Source: an uncultured Clostridia bacterium
GTDB taxonomy: Bacteria; Bacillota; Clostridia; Christensenellales; Borkfalkiaceae
Direction of reading: 5' to 3'
Length of the DNA stretch: 64,000 bases
Assembly: GCA_944330115.1 (NCBI GenBank)
Contig: CALVIN010000003.1
Span: 62,001-126,000, forward strand
Numbering within the stretch: the first letter of the stretch is position 1; every line of letters starts with the position of its first letter. The position numbers were made by a program, and so were the translations under genes. Under the pieces are notes generated by a model that saw only the letters and a list, made by a program, of their open reading frames with translations, made no database searches and was not told where the DNA came from. Shown piece by piece: positions 49,648 through 63,415 of this stretch.

Positions 49648-50604
49648 TCAATCATTCATATGAATCTTTTTATACTTTCGCAAAGCAATAGCCGCCGCTC
49701 CTTTAAGCGCTGCATAATATCCTAAATTAGTACGCTCTATTGGCACATTTCTGGCAAACTCTACTGTTCCGAGTTCTATTTGTCGTCTTATTTCCGGCAA
49801 CAACAAATCAAGCGATTGCGAAACACCTCCACCAACAAATACGCGCGGCGGATTCAATACATTTAATCCTATAGCTATCGACCGACCTATATACTTCCCT
49901 GCTTCACGAAAAACATCAAGACTCTTTACATCATTTTCTCGCGCTAGCAATGATGCGCCATAAGCATTTACAGGATAATTTTTCCGCTTAAACAATTCCG
50001 CATAACTTGGGTCGTCATGAGCAAGCTGTTGTACTCTTCTGCCTATAGCCGCGCCGCTTGCATGAGCCTCACAACATCCTACCTGTCCACATGGACATGG
50101 ACGAGGATGCTCATACTCAACTTTGACGTGTCCTAATTCTCCAGAAACTCCATTGGCACCTGGCATATTTTCACCGTTCATAATAATTGCAGCCCCAATG
50201 CCGTTGGAAATATTATACCATAAAAAATCACGTTCGCCCGTAATATCAGCTTCAGCTATTGCGCTGGCATTAACATCACAATCAGTTGCAATAATTTCAA
50301 AACCTGTACGTTTGCTATATTCATCTAACATATCTAAATTTCGCCATCCGGTTGCCGGAGCAAGCAAAAGATATCTTTCATTTCTTACCATGCCAGGCGG
50401 TACAACCCCAAGCGCAGATAAACTATCGAAAGTCATTCCCAGTTCAGCAGTGCAAGCATGCAATAATTCAACAGTACGGTCAAAGTGTATATGCCAATCT
50501 TTTTCATGGCCCTCAAAACGTTTTGTCGCTAAAATTTCAAATTTATCATCTAAAACAGCAACTACAGTTTTGCTGCCACCCATATCAATAGCACCAAGAT
50601 ACAT
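49648..50604 (-). CDS. ROK-family sugar kinase
   Basis: 318 residues: ATP loop AIDMGGSKTVVAVLD, catalytic Asp in ATDCDVNASAIAE, GANGVSGELGHVKVE and the ROK zinc site CPCGQVGCCEAHASG. There is no N-terminal helix-turn-helix, so it is a kinase and not a repressor. Relatives act on glucose, N-acetylglucosamine or N-acetylmannosamine. It is the last gene of the TIR-NagB/HAD/ROK group, 25 bp after the HAD gene. Confidence 0.92.
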   Translation of the reverse strand: MYLGAIDMGGSKTVVAVLDDKFEILATKRFEGHEKDWHIHFDRTVELLHACTAELGMTFDSLSALGVVPPGMVRNERYLLLAPATGWRNLDMLDEYSKRTGFEIIATDCDVNASAIAEADITGERDFLWYNISNGIGAAIIMNGENMPGANGVSGELGHVKVEYEHPRPCPCGQVGCCEAHASGAAIGRRVQQLAHDDPSYAELFKRKNYPVNAYGASLLARENDVKSLDVFREAGKYIGRSIAIGLNVLNPPRVFVGGGVSQSLDLLLPEIRRQIELGTVEFARNVPIERTNLGYYAALKGAAAIALRKYKKIHMND

Positions 50605-50629: not shown

Positions 50630-51298
50630 TTATATTTTATACAATTTACTCAATTTATCAACCAGCTCATAATAATCCGATACTATCATATCGTCCATAA
50701 GAAACTTTTGCATATATTGCTTTTTAGTTTGATTATAAGCCATTCCTATAAACGCACAACCTACACAGCAACTGCAAGCGTAATCATTCATTGTATCACC
50801 AATAAAAACTATATTTTCAACAGGGGTATGCAATTTTTCTGCAACTTTCAGAAGAGACCATGGCGCAGGCTTCATCTTCTCTGGCATATCGGGTACTCGC
50901 CCTACAATAGGAACAATGCAACCATTGCAAAAATCGTTTAAAAATGTTTGCACACAAGCTGACGAATTATTTGTCGCTATTCCCACGGCATAATTGTTAT
51001 CATATGCAAGCTGCAAAAAAATTTTTTCAACCCCTCTTATGGGCTGACAAGTTTTTACGGCTTCCGATTCTGCCACAGAAATAATGGAATCTGCAACACG
51101 AAAAGCGCTAAGTCTGACATCTTTTTTACTAATCTGACAACGAATAACATTAAAAACATCAAACGCATCACAATCGGGAGAAAAATTAACCCCGTATTCA
51201 CGCATTTTTTCATGCAGAATCAAACTAGTATGTGCAAGATTATAATTGTTAAAAAGCCGGCACATTGTACCATCAAAATCAAAAACGACTGAAATCAT
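50630..51298 (-). CDS. HAD-superfamily phosphatase
   Basis: 222 residues. Motif I VFDFDGTMCRLF with both Asp, motif II GIATNNSSA, Lys in EKMKPAPWSLLK and motif IV FIGDTMNDYACS. It resembles phosphoglycolate/sugar-phosphate phosphatases. Its ATG begins on the base after the stop codon of the TIR-NagB gene, so the two are coupled. Confidence 0.9.
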   Translation of the reverse strand: MISVVFDFDGTMCRLFNNYNLAHTSLILHEKMREYGVNFSPDCDAFDVFNVIRCQISKKDVRLSAFRVADSIISVAESEAVKTCQPIRGVEKIFLQLAYDNNYAVGIATNNSSACVQTFLNDFCNGCIVPIVGRVPDMPEKMKPAPWSLLKVAEKLHTPVENIVFIGDTMNDYACSCCVGCAFIGMAYNQTKKQYMQKFLMDDMIVSDYYELVDKLSKLYKI

Positions 51299-52597
51299 TT
51301 ACTTTGAGACTATCCATTCAGCTGTTTTTTTAGGATCACTCTCACTTATAGCAATATCATCAAGTCCCGCTTCGTGAGCAATAGTCTTTGTCGTTAAAAT
51401 ATAGGCATTGGGATGATTTCTCAATAAGGTAGCCGGCAACCCTGCTGTCATCGGACCGTTGAACATTCTTTTCAATATATTTGTTTTTTGTATATCAAAT
51501 ACAAGAATCAATAAAACGGATGACGACATTGCTACGCCAAGCCCTATTGTTATTATAGATTTTGACGGTTGATTGGGATCAATATATTTTTTACTATGCT
51601 CGCCGACCTCAACTATGCGCGGACCGTCATCTATTATTTCATCAATATCTGTATATGTGCCAACTTCATATGCAAGCACTTCGCCAACTGGTGAAATAGA
51701 TACAGCATGAACGCAAGGCGGAAACTCACGCAATAATTTTTGCATTTTTTGTAGAGGATCACTGTCAGTATATATACCGCTTAGCAAATGTAGCTGACTT
51801 TTTAATGGCGCCTTGTTCATCTCTCTCAGTGGCTCTATAAGTTTTTCATTGATATGTTTTGTGCGACTCGTTTCATGTTCTGACCATACTCCAAATGTTT
51901 CCGTATCTGAAAGAACAGTAGCCTCACCAAACGGACACCCGTCAAACTCATTAACAATGCGTCTCATCGCTCTAAAAATTGCCGAGGCACTTCGCCCTGT
52001 AGGAAGGATAACAGAAGATTCAGGATTCTTTTGAGCCATACTGAAATAAACACGCGCAGCACATTCCGCAGCGGCGCGGTCAGTATCGAATGCTAAAAGA
52101 CCTTTTGTCCAAACTTCATTTTTTATCCCGCGCTCAACCACCTTTTCATTGCTAGAGGTAATAGCAGGCTCAGCAAACTCTTTAGAAATACTATCAAGCG
52201 ATTTAACATCTTCAACCAGTTTTTCCAGCGTGTTATCACGCGTATCCAACCAGTCCAGCCACTGTGTAGATGTTAGAAAATAACTTAAATTATTTGGTTC
52301 TACTCGCTCTATGCGTAACCAGAATACAGGTTTTTTATATTTGTCAGCCAAAGATAATTCTCTTTTAACTTGCCGACTTGAATCCGCCTGCGCACAAAAC
52401 AACAATACAAGTGCCTTACAGTCTTTAATAGCATCATTTATAGCCTCATCCCACTGCTGTCCGGCTCGAATATCACGAGGCGCATACCATGTTTTTACAC
52501 CATTTTTTTCTAAATATTTAGAAAGATGCGCTACTAATTCTATTTTGCTAGAATGATAACTAATGAAAATACTTTTGTTTTTAAGTTCAGCATCCAT
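51299..52597 (-). CDS. TIR domain fused to a glucosamine-6-phosphate deaminase-like (NagB) domain
   Basis: 432 residues from ATG 52597 (a GTG at 52600 adds one). Residues 9-120 are a TIR domain: KSIFISYHSSKIELVAHLSK, TWYAPRDIRAGQQWDEAI, VLLFCAQADSSRQVKREL with a Glu at the NADase position. Residues 160-430 are NagB-like: LPTGRSASAIFRAM, LSDTETFGVWSEHETSRTKH, GPMTAGLPATLLRNHP. The NagB catalytic GxGxxGH appears as ISPVGE, so the key His seems lost; the domain may bind a sugar phosphate without turning it over. It heads a group with HAD and ROK genes. A TIR sensor/effector is inferred. Confidence 0.88.
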   Translation of the reverse strand: MDAELKNKSIFISYHSSKIELVAHLSKYLEKNGVKTWYAPRDIRAGQQWDEAINDAIKDCKALVLLFCAQADSSRQVKRELSLADKYKKPVFWLRIERVEPNNLSYFLTSTQWLDWLDTRDNTLEKLVEDVKSLDSISKEFAEPAITSSNEKVVERGIKNEVWTKGLLAFDTDRAAAECAARVYFSMAQKNPESSVILPTGRSASAIFRAMRRIVNEFDGCPFGEATVLSDTETFGVWSEHETSRTKHINEKLIEPLREMNKAPLKSQLHLLSGIYTDSDPLQKMQKLLREFPPCVHAVSISPVGEVLAYEVGTYTDIDEIIDDGPRIVEVGEHSKKYIDPNQPSKSIITIGLGVAMSSSVLLILVFDIQKTNILKRMFNGPMTAGLPATLLRNHPNAYILTTKTIAHEAGLDDIAISESDPKKTAEWIVSK

Positions 52598-52627
52598 CAC
52601 TAAAAAATCCCCTGCTGTAATATAATA

Positions 52628-52920: not shown

Positions 52921-55743
52921 TTAATTTGCGCGCTTGCCGTTTTTACCTGCCGCTATGAACGAATATGTCGACACTGCTATGCCGAACAGCGCCGCCGCGC
53001 CCAGTATGCCGTCGGTAACATACAGCGCTATCTGCCAGGAAGCGGGGCCGGTCATGCCGGTGGAATCGAGGCCGGCGTAGCTCTGCACGGCGTTGGAGTT
53101 GGTTATGGTATACACGATATTTTTTGCCGCGCGCGCAACGTTTGCCATTACGGTGGGGTTATCGCGGTACTCTTCGAGTGACCAGAACGAGCTGTTGGTG
53201 TTCAGCCAGAGGTCGGTGCCAGCCCAGAGGCCGGAGATCATATCCTGATAGAACATCGCCGAAACGGAGGCCTGATCGGTTATCACCATGCCCTCGAAGC
53301 CCCATTCATTGCGGAGCACCTCGGTCATGAGCCCGCGATGAGCGCCCGCCCAGCGCGCGCCTATGCGGCTCATTGCGGCCATGGCGGCGTTTGCACCGCC
53401 CTCTACCGTGATATACTCAAACGGCTCGAGATAGAGCTCGCGTATGGTCTGTTCGTTTGCAAATATTGCGCCGCCGTAGCGGTTGGTCTCCTGATCGTTG
53501 AGGGCAAAGTGCTTCATATAGGCTATTACGCCGCGGGAACGCACGCCGCGCATTTCGGCAGCGCCTATCTTGCCGGAGAGGAAGCCATCCTCGGAATAGT
53601 ACTCGAAGTTTCTGCCCGAATAGGGGCTGCGGTGAATGTTTGCGCCGGGAGCGTACCAGCCAGTGACGCCCGCGCCTATGCTGTCTTCGCCGATGAGTTC
53701 GCCCATGCGCTCCATCAGCTCTTCGTTCCAAGTGGAGGCCATTACTACCTCTACAGGCCATGCCATGGTGCTGGTGCCGCCTACGAGGGTACCCGATATG
53801 CCCGAAGGGCCGTCTTTATCCTGCGTGGCGGGCAGGCCTATCGCGTCGATCTGTATGGTCGAATAGCCGCCGAGGCGCACGAGGCGCGTTATCTGACTCC
53901 AGCTGAGCTGGCTGAGAAGGTCGTCCCACCTCTCGTCGTCGTAGTCGGCCTCGGTCATGTCCTGCACTTTGAACGAGGTGTCCGTGGAACCCAGCTCGGG
54001 CATAACGGCGGAACTGTCGTTTATCACCTCGTCGCCGCGGTACCAGTTGAGGTCGGCTATCATCTCATCGCTCGCCTCCCAGCTGCCGTTTTTGAAGGCG
54101 GAAGCCGGCATGGTGCCCTGCCAGTCGCTGCGCGAAAGGTAGGTGCATTCCTCGTAATAATTTACGTCGGCGTCGTCGAATTGGTTGGTTATTTCATAAC
54201 CCGTTGCCGTCGACTTTGAATAAGTTTGGGTATCGAGCTCGGCCTGTTCGTACTTATACACGAGGCCGTCGTTGCCCTCGACATCCGCGCCCTTGGCGGC
54301 GAGTATGTTGTTGAGCGCGTCGTGCGCGTTTTTGCCTGCGGCTATGTAGTAGTCGCCCGCGTCCACGATATAAGTTTTTGCGCTCTTGGAATCATACGCC
54401 TTGAGCTGCTCCTTTTCGACGGTGACAGTCACCTCCTCCGATTCGCCGGGAGCGAGAGAGGCCGTCTTGTGGAAGCCTGCAAGCTCTACCGCGGGCTTTT
54501 CGATGCCGTTTTCAACGTCGTATTCGGTGTAGGGCGACTGCATATACACCTGCACCACCTCTTTGCCCGCCATACTGCCGCTGTTTGTTACGGTGAGGCT
54601 TACGGTGAAGCTGTCGTCATTTTCGGTGACGGTATAGCCGCTCCAATCAAAGGTGGTGTATGAGAGGCCGTAGCCGAAGGGGAACTGCACCACCTCGTCG
54701 TAGTTGAAGTCGCCCGCGTTGCCCTGGCCTAAAACGGCGTCTTCATACCTTGTCTCGTAGTAGCGGTAGCCGACATACACGCCCTCCTGATATACAATAT
54801 AGTGCGAGGCGTTGTTTGCATAGTCGGTAACTTCGGCGCTATTGGTTATGTCGAAGCTGCCCATGTTGTATGCCGAGGGCGCGCTGAGCGAATCGTAGGC
54901 ATAGGTATCTACCAGCCTGCCAGAGGGGTTTACGTTGCCGTTTAAAATTTCGCCTATGGCGTACATGCCCTCCTGGCCGACGCCGCCCACCCACATGGCC
55001 GCCTTTACGTTGGCGTATGCGGGGTCGTCTAAAACGCCCAGCTCCATGGGGTTGTTGGCATTTATTAAAAGTATGACTTTATCGAATTTTTCGCACGCAA
55101 GCGCGAGGGTGTCGAGCTCATCCTTGTCCGGTTCGAGATAGAGATATCCGCTTGCAAGAGGCGTTGTGGGGATATCGGCACTCTCGCCGCCGTTGCGCCC
55201 CCATACCACTATGCCCACGTCGTCGTTGTTGAGGCTGTTCTTTACAGAATCGGTAAACACGCTCTGCGGCACCTCGTTTACGGCAAAGTCGCCTTCGCCC
55301 GAGGCGTTGGGCACTTCCTTGCGGTAGGAGCTGCCCGCGCCCGTGGCATAGAAGTCCCAAAGCGTGGAGTTTACCGTAAAGCCGCTCTCTTCGAGCGCCT
55401 CCTTTAAGGTGGGTGCCTTGGAAGAATCTACCGAACCCGAGCCTGCGCCGCCATATACGAAATCGACGCTGTTCTGGCCGAGAAGGGCCACATTCTTTTC
55501 GTCTTCGCCGAGGGGAAGAGCGCTATCTTCATTTTTGAGAAGTACGAGCCCCTCCGCCACTATCTGTTCGCAGGCCTCCTGTCCCTCTTCGGACGAAACG
55601 GTGCCGCCGTCGCTTAAGAACACCGTTATAAGGCCGCTGTATATACCCGTCACCACCGTGGCGACGATGAGAAGCACGGCAACGAACACGCTGACGGCCA
55701 TCACCACTATCGCCTTGGTTTTAGACAAAAGTAATTTTTTCAA
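52921..55743 (-). CDS. Membrane-anchored GH3 glycosidase with swapped domain order (second copy)
   Basis: 940 residues, same plan as the protein at 6148: membrane helix near 12-38, GH3 C-domain (EGLVLLKNEDSALPL), FnIII-like domain (FPFGYGLSYTTFDW), then the catalytic domain (SGRNFEYYSEDGFLSG, YMKHFALNDQETNRYGG, GMVITDQAS with the nucleophile Asp) and a second helix near 905-930 before a basic tail (AAGKNGKRAN). It lies 30 bp after its lipoprotein gene. A small coupled membrane protein, as at 5873, is absent. Confidence 0.9.
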   Translation of the reverse strand: MKKLLLSKTKAIVVMAVSVFVAVLLIVATVVTGIYSGLITVFLSDGGTVSSEEGQEACEQIVAEGLVLLKNEDSALPLGEDEKNVALLGQNSVDFVYGGAGSGSVDSSKAPTLKEALEESGFTVNSTLWDFYATGAGSSYRKEVPNASGEGDFAVNEVPQSVFTDSVKNSLNNDDVGIVVWGRNGGESADIPTTPLASGYLYLEPDKDELDTLALACEKFDKVILLINANNPMELGVLDDPAYANVKAAMWVGGVGQEGMYAIGEILNGNVNPSGRLVDTYAYDSLSAPSAYNMGSFDITNSAEVTDYANNASHYIVYQEGVYVGYRYYETRYEDAVLGQGNAGDFNYDEVVQFPFGYGLSYTTFDWSGYTVTENDDSFTVSLTVTNSGSMAGKEVVQVYMQSPYTEYDVENGIEKPAVELAGFHKTASLAPGESEEVTVTVEKEQLKAYDSKSAKTYIVDAGDYYIAAGKNAHDALNNILAAKGADVEGNDGLVYKYEQAELDTQTYSKSTATGYEITNQFDDADVNYYEECTYLSRSDWQGTMPASAFKNGSWEASDEMIADLNWYRGDEVINDSSAVMPELGSTDTSFKVQDMTEADYDDERWDDLLSQLSWSQITRLVRLGGYSTIQIDAIGLPATQDKDGPSGISGTLVGGTSTMAWPVEVVMASTWNEELMERMGELIGEDSIGAGVTGWYAPGANIHRSPYSGRNFEYYSEDGFLSGKIGAAEMRGVRSRGVIAYMKHFALNDQETNRYGGAIFANEQTIRELYLEPFEYITVEGGANAAMAAMSRIGARWAGAHRGLMTEVLRNEWGFEGMVITDQASVSAMFYQDMISGLWAGTDLWLNTNSSFWSLEEYRDNPTVMANVARAAKNIVYTITNSNAVQSYAGLDSTGMTGPASWQIALYVTDGILGAAALFGIAVSTYSFIAAGKNGKRAN

Positions 55744-55773
55744 CTTATATTCCTCCCTTTTGCCGTATGCCGA

Positions 55774-56319
55774 TTATGCGTTGGGGTTGGTGAGCGAGAG
55801 AATGTTGCCGTCGGTAGCAACGTATACAGTCATGGCTGCGCCGTATGCGTCGATGACGTCGTCGGCGGACTGCGCCATGTTCTGCTCGCCCTCTGTCTGT
55901 GCGGGCATCTCTACGGGATAGGTGGAAGTTTGCGTATCGATATGTATATCGAAGCCGCCGGCAAGCGAATAGGCGTTGAGTATAACGCGCGTTGCCTCGG
56001 AAAGTTCGTAAGGGGTGTAGCCGTCTACGCTGGTGCCCGCCGTGTAGGTGCCGAATGTCTGATATGTGTAGGTGCCGAGATTCATGCTGTAGGCATATAC
56101 ATATACCGTCTTCACCATTTCATAGGTGCCGTCGCTCATGATATTGAGGCCGTATACGGTGTAGTCAGAGCCGCCGTAGGCATTCTCGCCCGTTTCGCTC
56201 ACAACAAAGGTGTTCTCTATTTCGGCGCTCTCGCCCGAGCAGGCCGCAAGGCTTGCCGTCACCGCCGTTAAAGATGCCACCGCTGCCGCCACCGCAACAA
56301 TTTTGCCAAGTTTTTTCAT
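55774..56319 (-). CDS. Secreted lipoprotein of the second GH3/LytTR module
   Basis: 181 residues: signal peptide with lipobox SLAACSGES at about 24-32, then beta-rich sequence with aromatic repeats (SDGTYEMVKTVYVYAYS, LGTYTYQTFGTYT). Same size class, position and FGTYT-like hairpins as the lipoprotein at 9040, so probably a distant homologue. AGGAGG precedes the ATG. Confidence 0.8.
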   Translation of the reverse strand: MKKLGKIVAVAAAVASLTAVTASLAACSGESAEIENTFVVSETGENAYGGSDYTVYGLNIMSDGTYEMVKTVYVYAYSMNLGTYTYQTFGTYTAGTSVDGYTPYELSEATRVILNAYSLAGGFDIHIDTQTSTYPVEMPAQTEGEQNMAQSADDVIDAYGAAMTVYVATDGNILSLTNPNA

Positions 56320-56376
56320 AATAATTTTCCTCCTGTCATTTCAGTGTGCCCGAAATGTTAATTTTTTTACACGCAT

Positions 56377-56440
56377 ATGATAATGCCAAACATTTAAAAG
56401 CACAATACCGCTGGCACGGTTGCCCCCGATTTAGGCACGG
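56377..56440 (-). promoter_or_regulatory. Promoter of the second lipoprotein-GH3 operon with LytTR-type direct repeats
   Basis: On the minus strand TTGTGC (56400-56405), 17 bp, TATCAT (56377-56382). Upstream, CCGTGCC occurs twice, at 56413-56419 and 56434-56440, start to start exactly 21 bp. Spacing equals that before the lipoprotein gene at 9678 although the repeat text differs, as expected if each pair has its own regulator. Confidence 0.65.
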
Positions 56441-56444
56441 AATT

Positions 56445-56466
56445 AAAAAAACGCGCCGAAGGCGCG
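56445..56466 (-). terminator. Terminator after the GNAT gene, distal
   Basis: CGCGCC-TTC-GGCGCG stem followed on the minus strand by T7. Confidence 0.85.
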
Positions 56467-56479
56467 CGAAACATAGAAA

Positions 56480-56504
56480 GAGGCGCCGCAAACTGCGGCG
56501 CCTC
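56480..56504 (-). terminator. Hairpin between GNAT and lipoprotein genes
   Basis: Perfect stem GAGGCGCCGCA / TGCGGCGCCTC; second of three stacked hairpins that insulate the two transcripts. Confidence 0.6.
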
Positions 56505-56524
56505 CTTAAACTTAATATAGAAAG

Positions 56525-56557
56525 TAAAAAACAAAGCGGGCGGCTTTGGCCGCCCGC
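56525..56557 (-). terminator. Terminator after the GNAT gene, proximal
   Basis: GCGGGCGGC / GCCGCCCGC stem followed on the minus strand by TTTGTTTTTT. Nearly the same hairpin ends the kinase gene at 58734-58755. Confidence 0.8.
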
Positions 56558-56666
56558 CATTGATCGCTGACAATATATAATTATTATATATCAAATGTAT
56601 CGGCCGCCAATTATGCAACTTGCGCTCTGCTATGCAGCCGTCTTTTAATATCAAACCATATTGGCG

Positions 56667-57188
56667 CTATTCTATATTTTTATAGTAGAGATATCTCTCT
56701 TTACCACCATACTTTTTAAGTTCCTTCACCACTTTAAAGCCACTCATCTCAAGATTCCTGCTGCTGTATCCGTTCAGAGGGGAAACGGTGGAAAGCAGCA
56801 CCTTTATGCCGGCGTTCTTAGAATATTCTTCAAAAAGTTTTACAAACCTGCGCTGCAATCCGTTGCCCCGGTAGCCTTCGCGCACGATCACTAACTTTAC
56901 GTTTGCGTACTCGCACAAATCGCCGTGGCTATCGAGCGAATATGCAAGATTTTCGCTGTCTTCCCCGGCAATATACAGAATACCGAAACCTACAAATTTA
57001 TCACCGTCAAAGGCGCCCAGCACAAGCGAGGGCGGCAAAAAACACACTTCCAGCGTCTGATAGGTATTGCGCCTGAGAAGATCGGGATTGGGAAGCGCCG
57101 CAATTACTTCCTCCTGAATATCGAGCATTGCCCCGATATAACCAACATCCAATTTTCTTATGGTCAAATTATCGTTCTTCATATGCAT
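56667..57188 (-). CDS. GNAT-family N-acetyltransferase
   Basis: 173 residues. Acetyl-CoA site in VREGYRGNGLQRRFVKLFEE (R/Q-x-x-G-x-G/A pattern), preceding strand NVKLVIV and C-terminal NLEMSGFKVVKELKKYG. It starts 8 bp after the TIR-methyltransferase stop, so it is co-transcribed with it. Acceptor unknown. Confidence 0.85.
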   Translation of the reverse strand: MHMKNDNLTIRKLDVGYIGAMLDIQEEVIAALPNPDLLRRNTYQTLEVCFLPPSLVLGAFDGDKFVGFGILYIAGEDSENLAYSLDSHGDLCEYANVKLVIVREGYRGNGLQRRFVKLFEEYSKNAGIKVLLSTVSPLNGYSSRNLEMSGFKVVKELKKYGGKERYLYYKNIE

Positions 57189-57196
57189 GCATTCTT

Positions 57197-58576
57197 TTAC
57201 ACCGTAGCGCTGAATAAAATAAAGCCGAACAGCATGAAAAAGTCGTTTGACATAAACTCTTCTTCAAGTTCGTCATACTCCTCTTCCAGCCATTCCTTTT
57301 CTCTGCGGAGCTTTATATCCGCGGGATTGTTTGCCGCCTCGGTGCGTATTCCTTGTTTTATAAATTTAAATATGACGTCAAAAAAAGCTTCGCGCTCCTC
57401 ATAGGTCATGCCGGCAGTCGAAAGCCCGCACTTTTCAAGCGTTATATCCCTATACCCCCTACGCGTCATCAGAGTGTAGAGTTCACGGCCGGAATAACGG
57501 TAGCCGGTGGCCTCGCATTGCGATAACAGCGAAATAGCATGTTCGAAGCGCTGATTCTCGTCGGGATAAAAAATATTCATTCCGTCATCGATATTGCGCA
57601 CAATAAGTTTTGCGCCCAAACTTGTGTATTTTTTTACTGTTTTCAATACCTTTGACGGCGATTTTAAGTGGGAAATAATGGCGAGCATATTTATAAAATC
57701 GAACTTTTCTATGCCCATTTCTTCCATTATGCCCGCAAGCCTGTCCTCGAAATCTTCCGCCTCAATATCGCAACAAAAAAATTTTACGTTTTCGCTGCCG
57801 TATTTCTCATTAGCGTGCTGCACGGATACGCTGTCAAATTCCAAACCTACGATTTTTGCTATTTCCTGCCTGCCGCCCAGCCTGCTCATCAGCGCCGTGC
57901 CGTTGCTAGAACCGAGGTCGAGCACGCACAAATTTTTCTTTCCCTTAAGCAGTTTTTCATAAACGGGCATATCGAATTTCAGCAACAGCTGCTGCTGTTC
58001 TTTAAGCCTGTTCTTTTCGGTGGCGTTTGTGTCTGAAAACATCTTATTCCTTTCAGACTGTGTGATATGAGTGCGCCTTTTAAATTTTTCTTCGTTCCTG
58101 GCGGCATACTCAAAGCCTGCCCTCTCCCGCAAAATAGGCGCAAGCAATTCAACGGAACTGAATGAATACACATCGGTATATTTTATTGGATTGATATGTA
58201 TTATTCTGTCTATCTCTATGTCGGAAAAGTACTGTGTAAGATCCACATCTTTAAAGTCAAACTCCGGCATGATTATAGGCAAAAAACGGGTATTTTCGTT
58301 GTGCAAGGCAGACTGCAGTTCGCACATTACGATGTCGTCAGCATTTTTGCAATCGTCAAAAAAGCCGAGGGAAAGAATAATTATCATAAGATTGACATTC
58401 CCTGCGACTTCCATGCAGCGATTTTTAAAATTTTCACCTTTGCTGATGCATTTAGGCGCAAAAAACAGTTTTAACTTGTCCTTTGTATATAGTTTTAATT
58501 CAGAATATATGTTAGAACCTAACCAGCCACCCTTATCGCCTCTGTAACATATAAATACATTGTATCCCGTGTCCAT
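57197..58576 (-). CDS. TIR-like domain fused to a SAM-dependent methyltransferase
   Basis: 459 residues. Residues 5-150: TIR fold, with YNVFICYRGDKGGWLGSNIY, KLFFAPKCISKGENFKNR, LMIIILSLGFFDD and a Glu in DDIVMCELQSAL at the catalytic position. Residues 205-360: class I methyltransferase with motif I VLDLGSSNGTALMS (about 218-231), acidic VGLEFDS and FFCCDIEAED. The C-terminal 90 residues end in an acidic coil and a hydrophobic tail. The TIR part is divergent. A GNAT gene follows. Together they look like a defence or modification cassette set inside a GH3/LytTR module. Confidence 0.85.
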   Translation of the reverse strand: MDTGYNVFICYRGDKGGWLGSNIYSELKLYTKDKLKLFFAPKCISKGENFKNRCMEVAGNVNLMIIILSLGFFDDCKNADDIVMCELQSALHNENTRFLPIIMPEFDFKDVDLTQYFSDIEIDRIIHINPIKYTDVYSFSSVELLAPILRERAGFEYAARNEEKFKRRTHITQSERNKMFSDTNATEKNRLKEQQQLLLKFDMPVYEKLLKGKKNLCVLDLGSSNGTALMSRLGGRQEIAKIVGLEFDSVSVQHANEKYGSENVKFFCCDIEAEDFEDRLAGIMEEMGIEKFDFINMLAIISHLKSPSKVLKTVKKYTSLGAKLIVRNIDDGMNIFYPDENQRFEHAISLLSQCEATGYRYSGRELYTLMTRRGYRDITLEKCGLSTAGMTYEEREAFFDVIFKFIKQGIRTEAANNPADIKLRREKEWLEEEYDELEEEFMSNDFFMLFGFILFSATV

Positions 58577-58631
58577 CTTCCGTCACCGCTGATTCTGCTT
58601 TTAAGCAGACAGCAAAAATTATTCTTATAAA

Positions 58632-58661
58632 ATTGTAGCACAATTTGTTGTTTTTTGTCAA
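58632..58661 (-). promoter_or_regulatory. Promoter of the TIR-methyltransferase gene
   Basis: TTGACA (58656-58661), 18 bp, TACAAT (58632-58637) on the minus strand. A CTGCTTTTAAGCAG hairpin (about 58597-58610) lies in the leader. Confidence 0.7.
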
Positions 58662-58724
58662 TTAACTTGCCATTTATCTTTTAAGTAATAACAAACTCTT
58701 ACAAATTTTTTGGCATACACAATT

Positions 58725-58755
58725 AAAAGCAAAGCGGGCGGCTTTAGCCGCCCGC
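58725..58755 (-). terminator. Terminator after the second LytTR histidine kinase
   Basis: GCGGGCGGC-TAAA-GCCGCCCGC stem followed on the minus strand by TTTGCTTTTAATT. Confidence 0.75.
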
Positions 58756-58760
58756 ATATT

Positions 58761-60086
58761 TTATCTGCTGAAGGTTATATTTACGTTAAAAATGCCGTCG
58801 TCGGCGCTCATATATACCGAACCGCCGTATTTTTCGACTATCCTGCGTATACTGCGCGTGCCGAAGCCGTGGCTCGTTTTGTCGCTCTTGGAGGTCTGCG
58901 GCAAACCGTCCTTTATTGCGAGTTCTCCCGAAAAATAGTTCTTTGTGGCCACCGACACGACGCCGGAATGATCGGCTATGTTGCACGATATCACGCGCTG
59001 TTCGGCACTCTCCAGCCCCTCCACCGCCTCTATGCAGTTATCGAGCAGGTTGCCGAGCAGCGAATATACGTCGATATTCTCCATAAAGCCGAGCGCATCG
59101 GCATTTAACATACACGAAAGATTTATGCCGTGCGCCTTGCAATACATCCACTTTTCGGAGATGACTATGTTTACGGCGGTGTTGTCCGTCTTTATCACCG
59201 TGTCATACGCGCCCGTAACGTCCTCTATCGAGCGCAACAGCTTTTCGGCCTCCTCGCCGCCCGCGCGCAATACCGCCACCTGGTGCTTTAAGTCGTGCGC
59301 TTTTATGCTCAAAAGTTCGGCGTTCACTTCGGCAAACTTATATTGTTTCTCCTGCTGCTCCAGAATGGTGTTTACTATCTGCTTTTCGTGCGTGAGCTGA
59401 AGCCTGTCTAAAAGCAGCGTCTGCACAAAAAGAATGAGCGTCATGCACACTATTTCGATTATCAGCCCTATTACATATAACTGAAAATGCTCCTGGCTGT
59501 ATAGTTCGCTCACGGCGTTGACTATTACGTTTACAAAGAGCACGACGGCAAACATGACGAGCACGCTTACGCCAACGTCGTAGTCGCGGCTGCGCGATAT
59601 GGGCCGCACGAAGATAAAGAAGCACAACGCAAACAAAGCGGCGTAAATGAACAGATATATACCGGCGGCCGCCCAGCTTGTGTATTCTATGTTCAGCAGA
59701 TTAAATTCTGGCAAGAGCACGGTTATTATAAAGATATAGCAGCAGAATATGAGCTGGCGCATACAGTAGCCCGAAACGGCGCAAAACCACAGCTGCCTTG
59801 CGCGTATGCGGTAGCAGGCGAAATAGCCGCACACGCTAGCCAAAAATGTCGTAAAGTAACATATGCAGGACATCACCGTGTAGTTGCCGTCCTCTATGCC
59901 CGTTATGGTAAAAGACATAAGATGACCGCAGCCGACGGCGACCAACATAACGCCTAAAAAAGCCAAAACGGCGCGCAGCCAGAATTTTTTGCGGCGCTCA
60001 TAGCCATATATGAAAACAAATTCACAGAGCAACACTTCGGCGGCTACCAGAATATGCCGCATTGTGCAAAAGCCGATTATCGACAT
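58761..60086 (-). CDS. AgrC-like sensor histidine kinase (GHKL), second copy
   Basis: 441 residues. Six to seven membrane helices to about 215, a coiled linker, H-box SIKAHDLKHQVAVL, N-box LLDNCIEAVEGL and G-box HGFGTRSIRRIVEKYGG. Same plan as the kinase at 9861. Its ATG overlaps the regulator's stop codon by one base. The signal is unknown. Confidence 0.9.
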   Translation of the reverse strand: MSIIGFCTMRHILVAAEVLLCEFVFIYGYERRKKFWLRAVLAFLGVMLVAVGCGHLMSFTITGIEDGNYTVMSCICYFTTFLASVCGYFACYRIRARQLWFCAVSGYCMRQLIFCCYIFIITVLLPEFNLLNIEYTSWAAAGIYLFIYAALFALCFFIFVRPISRSRDYDVGVSVLVMFAVVLFVNVIVNAVSELYSQEHFQLYVIGLIIEIVCMTLILFVQTLLLDRLQLTHEKQIVNTILEQQEKQYKFAEVNAELLSIKAHDLKHQVAVLRAGGEEAEKLLRSIEDVTGAYDTVIKTDNTAVNIVISEKWMYCKAHGINLSCMLNADALGFMENIDVYSLLGNLLDNCIEAVEGLESAEQRVISCNIADHSGVVSVATKNYFSGELAIKDGLPQTSKSDKTSHGFGTRSIRRIVEKYGGSVYMSADDGIFNVNITFSR

Positions 60087-60802
60087 TACATCACTCCGTT
60101 ATAGGCGCTGAACGCGCGCAGAAATTCCGCCTTGTACGACTTTGTTATGGGTACGGGCACGCCGTGAACGGTGACGGTGTTATCCTTTACGTTTTCAACG
60201 TGGCGCAGGTTTACTATGTAGCTGTTGGCGCTGCGCGCAAAACTTGCCGAAAGAAGGGGCAATATGCTCTTCATGCTGCCGCGCACGGTGATGTCGCCCT
60301 TTTTTGTGTGCACCACAAGGTAGTGCAGCATCACTTCGATATAATATATCCTGCTCTCGCCTATGCGCACGGCGCCGCCTTTGGTGTTGAGAACGATGAA
60401 CTTTTCGGTGTGCAGCAGAATGTAGCGCATGGCCTTTTTTAATTTTAATGCGAAATCTTCATACACGAGCGGCTTTACCACATAGTCGACGGCGTCCACC
60501 TCGTAGCCGTTTATGGCAAACTGTACCGTCTTTGTTATGAACATTATGGCAACGTCGCGGTTGGCCTTGCGCACCTCGCGCGCAAGGTCGATGCCGTTTT
60601 GCCTGCTGCCGGGAAGTATTATATCCATCAGCAGCAGATGAAAATCGGTAAACGCGCTGCCGTGCGACAAAAAACTTTCGGCATCCACAAAGTGGACTAT
60701 TTCATAGTCGATACCCGCGGCCGAAAAGAACCGCCCGAGCATGCTCTCAGTGAGGACGCACTCCTCTTCTTCGTCCTCCAAAAGGGCTATTTTAACTATC
60801 AT
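60086..60802 (-). CDS. LytTR-family response regulator, second copy
   Basis: 238 residues from ATG 60802 after GGGAAG. Receiver with LLEDEEEE, phospho-Asp in LLLMDIILPGSRQNGID, FITKTVQFA and YVVKPLVY; LytTR domain with YYIEVMLHYLVVHT and FARSANSYIVNLRHVENV. Likely target is the lipoprotein-GH3 promoter at 56377-56440, now separated from it by the TIR cassette. Confidence 0.92.
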   Translation of the reverse strand: MIVKIALLEDEEEECVLTESMLGRFFSAAGIDYEIVHFVDAESFLSHGSAFTDFHLLLMDIILPGSRQNGIDLAREVRKANRDVAIMFITKTVQFAINGYEVDAVDYVVKPLVYEDFALKLKKAMRYILLHTEKFIVLNTKGGAVRIGESRIYYIEVMLHYLVVHTKKGDITVRGSMKSILPLLSASFARSANSYIVNLRHVENVKDNTVTVHGVPVPITKSYKAEFLRAFSAYNGVM

Positions 60803-60910
60803 GTCTTCCCACTGACGCAAATAATTAAAAATTTATCTTATTATAACATGAGTTTTTATATATTTCAATACAGGTATAAAAAAATAATTGTGCGAAAATA
60901 AATTCAGCTG

Positions 60911-62001: not shown

Positions 62002-62056
62002 AGAAATGTATTTATATGTTTAAATATCTTTATAATTTGTGATAAAGGAGAAATTT

Positions 62057-63415
62057 ATGCTTTGTGTTAGAACTTATGAAGATCTTTGTCAAGAAACTAT
62101 ATACAACAGAAATCAGTTTTGGTATTATGTAATTATTTTTAATCCAAAAGATCTAACACCTGCAAGCATAAAGCTGCTTGATAATCTGTATTATTTTCAT
62201 AAAGATTCTGGTGCCGACTGCGTATATTTTATACCAGGTTTTATAAATACGACTGAAGGTATTTCAAAAATAAATATCGACTTTGGGGGACCTCATGATA
62301 ATTTTGAAATACCCAAATATGGTACTGTGCAATTTTATGTAGATGATTTCCTTGATTGCTACAAAAAAATTGAAGAGAATAATGCCATACAGTGGCGTTA
62401 TAGCGGTGAATGCGAATTACTTCTTTTCAATTTAGATAAAAACGGCAAAATTATTCCTAATGATTTTGCAGCATACAACCTTGACGACATAATTAGAAAT
62501 AACAGAACCATAACACCATTTATACGCTATACTATAAATTTAGGAAAAGATGCATATGATAAGATAGTGGCAAAAAGAGATCTGGATAATTTTTATGCCG
62601 AACTAATAATGCCTTCCTTTAATGATTTTAGCGAGCAAACAATTAGAGATATGTTGGGAACAATGCGTGATGGAGGATTCCAAAAAGATAATTACTATTT
62701 TTTAAGCTACTCATCTAAAGACTATAAATTTGTTTACCAAATACGAAATGCTATCGAACGAGCCGGCATAAAATGTTGGATGGCTCCGCGTGACATTCCG
62801 CATGGAATGAATTATGCACACATAATAGAACTTGCAATACAGAATGCTCAACAATTTATAATAATTCTTTCAAATTCTTCTATTTGGTCTGTTTGGGTAG
62901 AAAAAGAGCTATTACGAGCGATTCATTATTTTCAACATGAGCATTCAGATAAAATAGTTGCTGTTTGGCTAAACCATCAAATTGACCTCGATGCTACTCC
63001 CATGGCTTATCCGGTAGAAGGCATACAAATTCGCGGATGTTTAAGCTCGGTAGATGATTATAGAATACTTTTACCTGATGAGCTACAAAAAAAGCTTAAA
63101 ATGCAAGATAAAATAAAGCAATCTTTAAATTATTTTGAAACCAATTTAGTTACTTCTACTTCTCTGCAGAAGCAATTTACTAAATTATTGTCCATTGCTC
63201 TATCAATTAAAAATCATATTAACTACAAAGCGGAAAATCCTCTATGCAATCAATTTAACAACCAATGCAACCAACTTAAACTTGCGATACAAAACATGGA
63301 AAATCTATCGGAGGAAGATGAAAACTATTGCGCAATACTTCACTCTGCCTTTAAATTAGAAAATGAAATATTACAAGCAATTAAGCAAATAGAAGAAATT
63401 TGCACTCAAAATTAA
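62057..63415 (+). CDS. TIR-domain protein with an unrecognised N-terminal domain
   Basis: 452 residues from ATG 62057, six bases after AAAGGAG. Residues 1-205 form a domain I do not recognise, rich in aromatic residues (NRNQFWYYVIIFNPKDLTPA, VQFYVDDFLDCYKK). Residues 212-340 are a TIR domain: NYYFLSYSSKDYKFVYQI, CWMAPRDIPHGMNYAHII, IILSNSSIWSVWVEKELLRA with the likely catalytic Glu (about 284). The last 110 residues are helical. The gene is AT-rich with its own consensus promoter. It stands alone, as some NAD-cleaving TIR effectors do; a defence role is inferred. Confidence 0.85.
   Translation: MLCVRTYEDLCQETIYNRNQFWYYVIIFNPKDLTPASIKLLDNLYYFHKDSGADCVYFIPGFINTTEGISKINIDFGGPHDNFEIPKYGTVQFYVDDFLDCYKKIEENNAIQWRYSGECELLLFNLDKNGKIIPNDFAAYNLDDIIRNNRTITPFIRYTINLGKDAYDKIVAKRDLDNFYAELIMPSFNDFSEQTIRDMLGTMRDGGFQKDNYYFLSYSSKDYKFVYQIRNAIERAGIKCWMAPRDIPHGMNYAHIIELAIQNAQQFIIILSNSSIWSVWVEKELLRAIHYFQHEHSDKIVAVWLNHQIDLDATPMAYPVEGIQIRGCLSSVDDYRILLPDELQKKLKMQDKIKQSLNYFETNLVTSTSLQKQFTKLLSIALSIKNHINYKAENPLCNQFNNQCNQLKLAIQNMENLSEEDENYCAILHSAFKLENEILQAIKQIEEICTQN

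Follow-up and report, generated by a model that had tools for sequence, protein, structure and literature searches.

Within a 64,000-nucleotide stretch of gut-bacterial DNA, which we call the window, we found a two-gene unit in which a TIR domain fused to a class I methyltransferase (MTase) is encoded beside a GNAT acetyltransferase, whose reading frame starts 8 bp past the stop codon of the fusion gene (Table 1). The interpretation we tentatively favour, short of holding it probable, is that the pair forms a mobile cassette for a TIR effector, whose C-terminal sensor is exchangeable and whose partner is the GNAT, and that it likely serves defence. Its directly observed basis consists of the domains themselves, the conservation of a glutamate in the TIR, the GNAT pairing, the partial independence of the family from SAM and an empty collinear locus in a related genome. 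A chance open reading frame was considered as a reading of the fusion gene and rejected.

Table 1. Features of the TIR-MTase and GNAT gene pair and its flanks, in window coordinates
Feature	Position	Strand	Basis
TIR-MTase fusion gene, 459 aa	57197..58576	-	Pfam, motif alignment, ~90 relatives
TIR domain, residues 1-152	58121..58576	-	SARM1/TIR-1 profile, E ~1e-7; AF2 topology, Z 13.3
E86 codon, putative catalytic Glu	58319..58321	-	Alignment to SARM1 catalytic Glu; Glu family-wide
Class I MTase-fold domain, residues 184-459	57200..58027	-	Pfam, sequence and fold comparison
SAM motif I VLDLGSSNG, residues 218-226, intact	57899..57925	-	Family alignment
GNAT acetyltransferase partner, 173 aa, R-G-x-G acetyl-CoA motif	56667..57188	-	Pfam, alignment, neighbourhood
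Sigma-70-type promoter TTGACA-18-TACAAT	58632..58661	-	11/12 consensus match
Stacked terminator hairpins 3' of GNAT gene	56451..56558	-	Terminator search
41-nt repeat with terminator hairpin, left copy	56517..56557	+	Repeat comparison
41-nt repeat, right copy, 85% identical to left	58715..58755	+	Repeat comparison

An earlier note, made from the letters of this DNA, had described the first 150 residues as TIR-like. Pfam reports no TIR in the whole 459-residue protein, and the TIR part alone matches TIR_2 with an E value of 6.5e-5, which falls short of the Pfam cut-off. All 11 relatives that share the TIR type of the window protein match TIR_2 in Pfam, and a profile of this type retrieves both SARM1 and C. 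elegans TIR-1 (E ~1e-7). An AlphaFold model of the TIR alone (pLDDT 65, pTM 0.63) has the alternating beta-alpha order of TIR domains and aligns with SARM1 at Z 13.3 across 133 residues, with SPARTA TIRs also among its structure matches. By fold and by sequence profile the domain thus belongs to the TIR superfamily, as the note had supposed, and the structure prediction it had named as a possible refutation, an N-domain that is not TIR-like, yielded a TIR fold instead. The Glu of DDIVMCELQSAL, which it had also singled out, was well chosen: this residue, E86, lies on helix alpha-C and aligns with the catalytic Glu of SARM1, the placement that marks TIR NADases. A Glu is kept in this column in 84/84 TIR-bearing members of the family, despite a division of their TIRs into about seven classes that differ greatly. 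Because this residue is conserved and the domain resembles SARM1, we consider NADase activity of the TIR likely.

The C-terminal part matches Methyltransf_31/23 of Pfam over residues 208-379 (E ~1e-10), and with its Rossmann-like fold and intact Gly-rich motif I it is a class I SAM methyltransferase, again in line with what had been proposed; these Pfam families and the SARM1/TIR-1 profile together substantiate the fusion. The full-length AlphaFold2 model, made with four sequences, is poor (pLDDT 57, with ~36-53 in the TIR part), and we drew on its MTase core alone. A search model built on the MTase region found matches in 35/396 genomes of the window's order, from 17 genera, and in 41/398 genomes of the window's family; across the phylum it returned two weak matches to ordinary MTases in 398 genomes. 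We collected 93 ORFs, nearly all with an N-terminal TIR and ~425-495 aa in total length, and the TIR-MTases are a family of about 90 proteins from one order, of Christensenellales type; the named relatives, Candidatus Ornithoclostridium faecavium and an uncultured Christensenella, both belong to the Christensenellales. The family is apparently undescribed: the 5.39 million open papers that we searched contain no mention of a TIR-methyltransferase fusion, with a passing mention in a 2015 nucleotide-centred survey still possible, and methyltransferases and GNAT are absent from the closest searchable survey of NAD and ADP-ribose systems. Each MTase subfamily has mostly kept its own TIR type, and the tree has 8 changes of TIR against a minimum of 6, which indicates only a few swaps among subfamilies. 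The window's genome encodes a second copy (L002/L037, 451 aa) that is followed by an ATP-grasp gene, and the same holds for close relatives of this copy, where the ATP-grasp is of the RimK type.

The MTase domain has lost its cofactor site in part of the family. Motif I is gone from 11 members, which read, for example, ALDFSVLNP or IFNPAVYEI at this position; the loss occurred at least twice (2 changes on the tree). In these pseudo-MTases the SAM residues G222, G226, G244 and H303 are mostly missing, E187, R190, D330, D331, G332, R360, R364 and F403 are kept at 91-100%, and the TIR Glu is retained. Both halves of the TIR-MTases are under strong purifying selection, and dN/dS of the pseudo-MTase part, at 0.03-0.05 in the two measurable pairs, matches the low values of the rest of the family. 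Since the motif was lost while selection was maintained, methyl transfer cannot be a property of the family as a whole, and selection together with the kept residues means that the MTase fold holds a function with no need for methyl transfer, the simplest inference being that it binds a ligand or a partner. The proposal that the methyltransferase makes or modifies a signal therefore fails as a general account, although it is possible for members with an intact SAM site.

The downstream gene scores 26.7 bits against Acetyltransf_1 (cut-off 20.7) and has the R-G-x-G acetyl-CoA loop, which confirms the GNAT that the earlier note had placed 8 bp away; the promoter and stacked terminators that it had drawn around the pair are also present, and terminator-like sites number 13 versus 3.2 expected. 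A GNAT adjoins 23/93 TIR-MTases compared with 11/558 other genes of the same stretches, with 7 gains or losses of this adjacency on the tree, and it lies directly downstream in 8/8 TIR-MTases with the window's TIR type (type A), so the search for the fusion in other genomes that the note had suggested revealed a conserved TIR-MTase-GNAT association. A search with the type-A TIR also retrieved proteins that join a TIR of this type (~40-46% identical) to another C-terminal domain in place of the MTase. This domain is DUF6273 in one of them (L038), and the other TIR-DUF6273 proteins have an L038-like C-terminal sequence; a GNAT comes next in 4/5 of those with a type-A TIR (L189-L192 yes, L039 no). 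As the GNAT also accompanies TIR-DUF6273 proteins, it goes with the TIR, and the pairing of these two either predates the methyltransferase or does not depend on it. A GNAT adjoins 9/11 pseudo-MTases versus 13/79 others, but the pseudo-MTases are mostly one clade and an independent-pairs test is powerless, so we claim no link between SAM loss and the GNAT.

These patterns bear on two alternatives that assign tasks to the partner enzymes. In the first, the whole would be one chemical pathway in which the TIR makes an NAD-derived molecule that is decorated by the MTase, the GNAT or, elsewhere, ATP-grasp and radical-SAM enzymes. Such a pathway would suit the SAM-binding residues that 79/90 members retain, the recurrence of group-transfer neighbours (GNAT, RimK-type ATP-grasp, ATP-grasp with radical SAM) and the HD-RyR protein, SLOG-like by eye at its C-terminus, that is adjacent in two genomes; we nevertheless judge it unlikely, because 11 members lost the SAM motif under purifying selection, the neighbouring enzymes are of unrelated kinds and none stands beside most members, and the GNAT is found with the same TIR where DUF6273 replaces the MTase. 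This last point also undercuts the narrower suggestion that the MTase and GNAT act together on one product. In the second alternative, the GNAT, the MTase or both would be an immunity or self-marking factor that silences the TIR in the style of a toxin-antitoxin system. The GNAT is indeed tightly coupled to the TIR and not to the C-terminal domain, and both genes are missing together from the empty locus described below, yet most TIR-MTases have no GNAT, the acetyl-CoA loop has lost its second Gly in the GNATs of TIR-DUF6273 proteins, and the GNATs of the type-B group lie upstream and are two in number, which makes this account quite unlikely as a whole; self-marking by the GNAT to block the TIR is possible.

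Some members occur in larger arrangements. In one operon (L027:7186-13236), two GNATs are encoded together with an HD-RyR protein, whose end is SLOG-like by eye, and with two fusion proteins that are possibly an active/inactive pair: a TIR-MTase with an intact SAM motif and a SAM-less TIR-pseudo-MTase. At another locus (L166:1952-12123), two different TIR-MTases share a gene row with a pentapeptide-repeat protein and two ATP-grasp-radical SAM proteins, one of which was assigned by similarity.

Our cassette interpretation also holds that the pair is mobile, and several observations are relevant here. First, in a related genome (G027) the genes for a GH3 protein, a lipoprotein, a GHKL kinase and a LytTR regulator, which are the neighbours of the pair, are collinear with window positions 52921-60820, and G027 has ~215 bp in place of the 2.4-kb unit formed by the TIR-MTase and GNAT genes. 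Second, the genes of the pair have a GC content of 42% and 45% compared with 52% for the window. Third, the hairpin core of the flanking repeat has only two occurrences in the 1.77-Mb genome, one at each end of the pair. Fourth, cassettes of other genomes that are ~60% identical have unrelated surroundings. Finally, two genera share another family member at 95% DNA identity, against 83% identity for the housekeeping gene next to it, and horizontal transfer of this member appears likely from that comparison. Direct repeats were seen elsewhere too: at L110:6471-9430 the beginning of another gene is present in two near-identical copies (>200 bp), one on each side of the TIR-MTase, and a 25-nt direct repeat flanks the TIR-MTase of L024 on both sides. 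No shared integration mechanism emerged from the direct repeats at our locus, L024 and L110, and a search of phage, plasmid and viral-contig collections returned no copy of a TIR-MTase.

A third alternative is that the fusion is a physiological regulator outside defence, in which an enzyme-fold sensor would control NAD+ turnover or a TIR-mediated assembly. It draws on the housekeeping surroundings, on the strong purifying selection and on the presence in the same genome of a TIR fused to a NagB-like domain (by eye) in a sugar gene cluster. However, the presence of the family in only 13/101 of the nearest genomes is patchy and better fits an accessory conflict gene, and the empty site in G027, the likely horizontal transfer and the many TIR subtypes also argue against such a regulator, which we consider improbable.

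Other TIR genes lie in the vicinity. A second TIR fusion, 5 kb away at 51299-52600(-), matches TIR_2 with an E value of 5e-19, continues into the NagB-like domain, which resembles glucosamine-6-phosphate isomerase by eye, and stands in a row with genes for a HAD phosphatase (50630-51298) and a ROK kinase (49648-50604). A third TIR gene at 62039-63415(+) has a GC content of 32%, an N-terminal domain with no assignment and its TIR at residues 221-313 (E 4e-18). About 11-13 kb past the window end (L185:13399-15150(-)), a gene encodes a protein with two TIRs, one at either end. The 1.77-Mb genome has 7 TIR_2 matches, several of them near the TIR-MTase locus.

In the cassette reading that we favour, the N-terminal TIR would be the catalytic output, probably cleaving NAD+ or converting it to an ADP-ribose-type product through E86. 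The C-terminal MTase fold would be an exchangeable sensor or regulator that restrains the TIR in the absence of a bound ligand or partner, a role suggested by the loss of the SAM site under selection and by the exchange with DUF6273; the MTase of the window copy probably also binds SAM and perhaps still methylates. The GNAT would be a dedicated partner of this TIR type, and from the gene pairing we think that acetylation by it most likely regulates the TIR or its substrate. The whole would likely serve defence against phages or other genetic invaders through NAD+ depletion or signalling. NADase activity, the sensor role, the direction in which the GNAT acts and the defence role are thus the parts of this scheme that we infer.

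A role in defence is plausible, given the patchiness and mobility of the family and the known uses of bacterial TIR domains (for example PMC12578639; PMC10022894). Other observations weaken it. No classical defence genes stand beside the pair, PADLOC gave fold-level matches only, and there is no defence island; most TIR-MTases are solitary among housekeeping genes. Strong purifying selection on both halves is also not the signature of an arms race and counts against a defence cassette. A wider generalization, that one gut-bacterial order carries modular, mobile TIR immune genes in which the sensor of a TIR NADase is either an MTase fold, more than once SAM-less, or DUF6273, with a GNAT as dedicated partner, is possible, and we put it forward more tentatively than the reading of the pair itself.

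TIR domains are central to immunity in organisms from bacteria to humans, and how bacterial TIRs are triggered is the main open question about them. The family described here offers a large natural series in which one kind of effector is joined to interchangeable C-terminal domains, including SAM-less MTase copies that keep most other conserved residues, and would allow the trigger question to be addressed directly by domain swaps and motif mutants. The GNAT pairing, in turn, suggests that acetylation is a partner activity of TIRs that has gone unrecognised.

Comparison with known systems places the pair near, but not within, several of them. We rejected a DNA-methylation or restriction system, as only general MTase families exceed the Pfam cut-off and no DNA-MTase or nuclease family does. 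The nearest solved sequence relative of the C-terminal domain, a class I MTase of the 3mgg type from Methanosarcina mazei whose function is unknown, shares its D-x-G...P and GR-x-I-Y regions but is a stand-alone enzyme without a TIR. For MADS there is a local Mad2 match on the MTase fold only (residues 207-326), and the pair has no match to another MADS protein. Burroughs et al. reportedly described, in 2015, nucleotide-centred conflict systems with TIR, SLOG, RyR and HD domains, and in L027 and L035 the gene immediately 5' of a TIR-MTase encodes an HD-RyR protein (RyR by Pfam, HD and the SLOG-like end by eye); none was found at the window locus or elsewhere in its genome. Like Thoeris ThsB, the window protein has a bacterial TIR by which an ADP-ribose signal could be made, and PADLOC reports fold-level ThsB similarity in some relatives, but here the TIR and MTase form one chain with a GNAT partner, and identity with Thoeris was rejected as the flanking genes include no ThsA-like effector and PADLOC gives no ThsA for the pair. 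The NADases SARM1 and C. elegans TIR-1 are the best profile and structure match, with a common TIR fold and an aligned catalytic Glu, whereas their regulatory part consists of ARM and sterile-alpha-motif domains and that of the window protein is a methyltransferase fold. TIR-STING, TIR-SAVED and SPARTA (TIR-APAZ/Ago) likewise fuse or pair a TIR effector with a sensor; Pfam and PADLOC found none of the parts of CBASS, TIR-STING, TIR-SAVED or SPARTA (STING, SAVED, Ago/APAZ) in the protein or its partner, and the sensor in our family would instead be an MTase fold or DUF6273.
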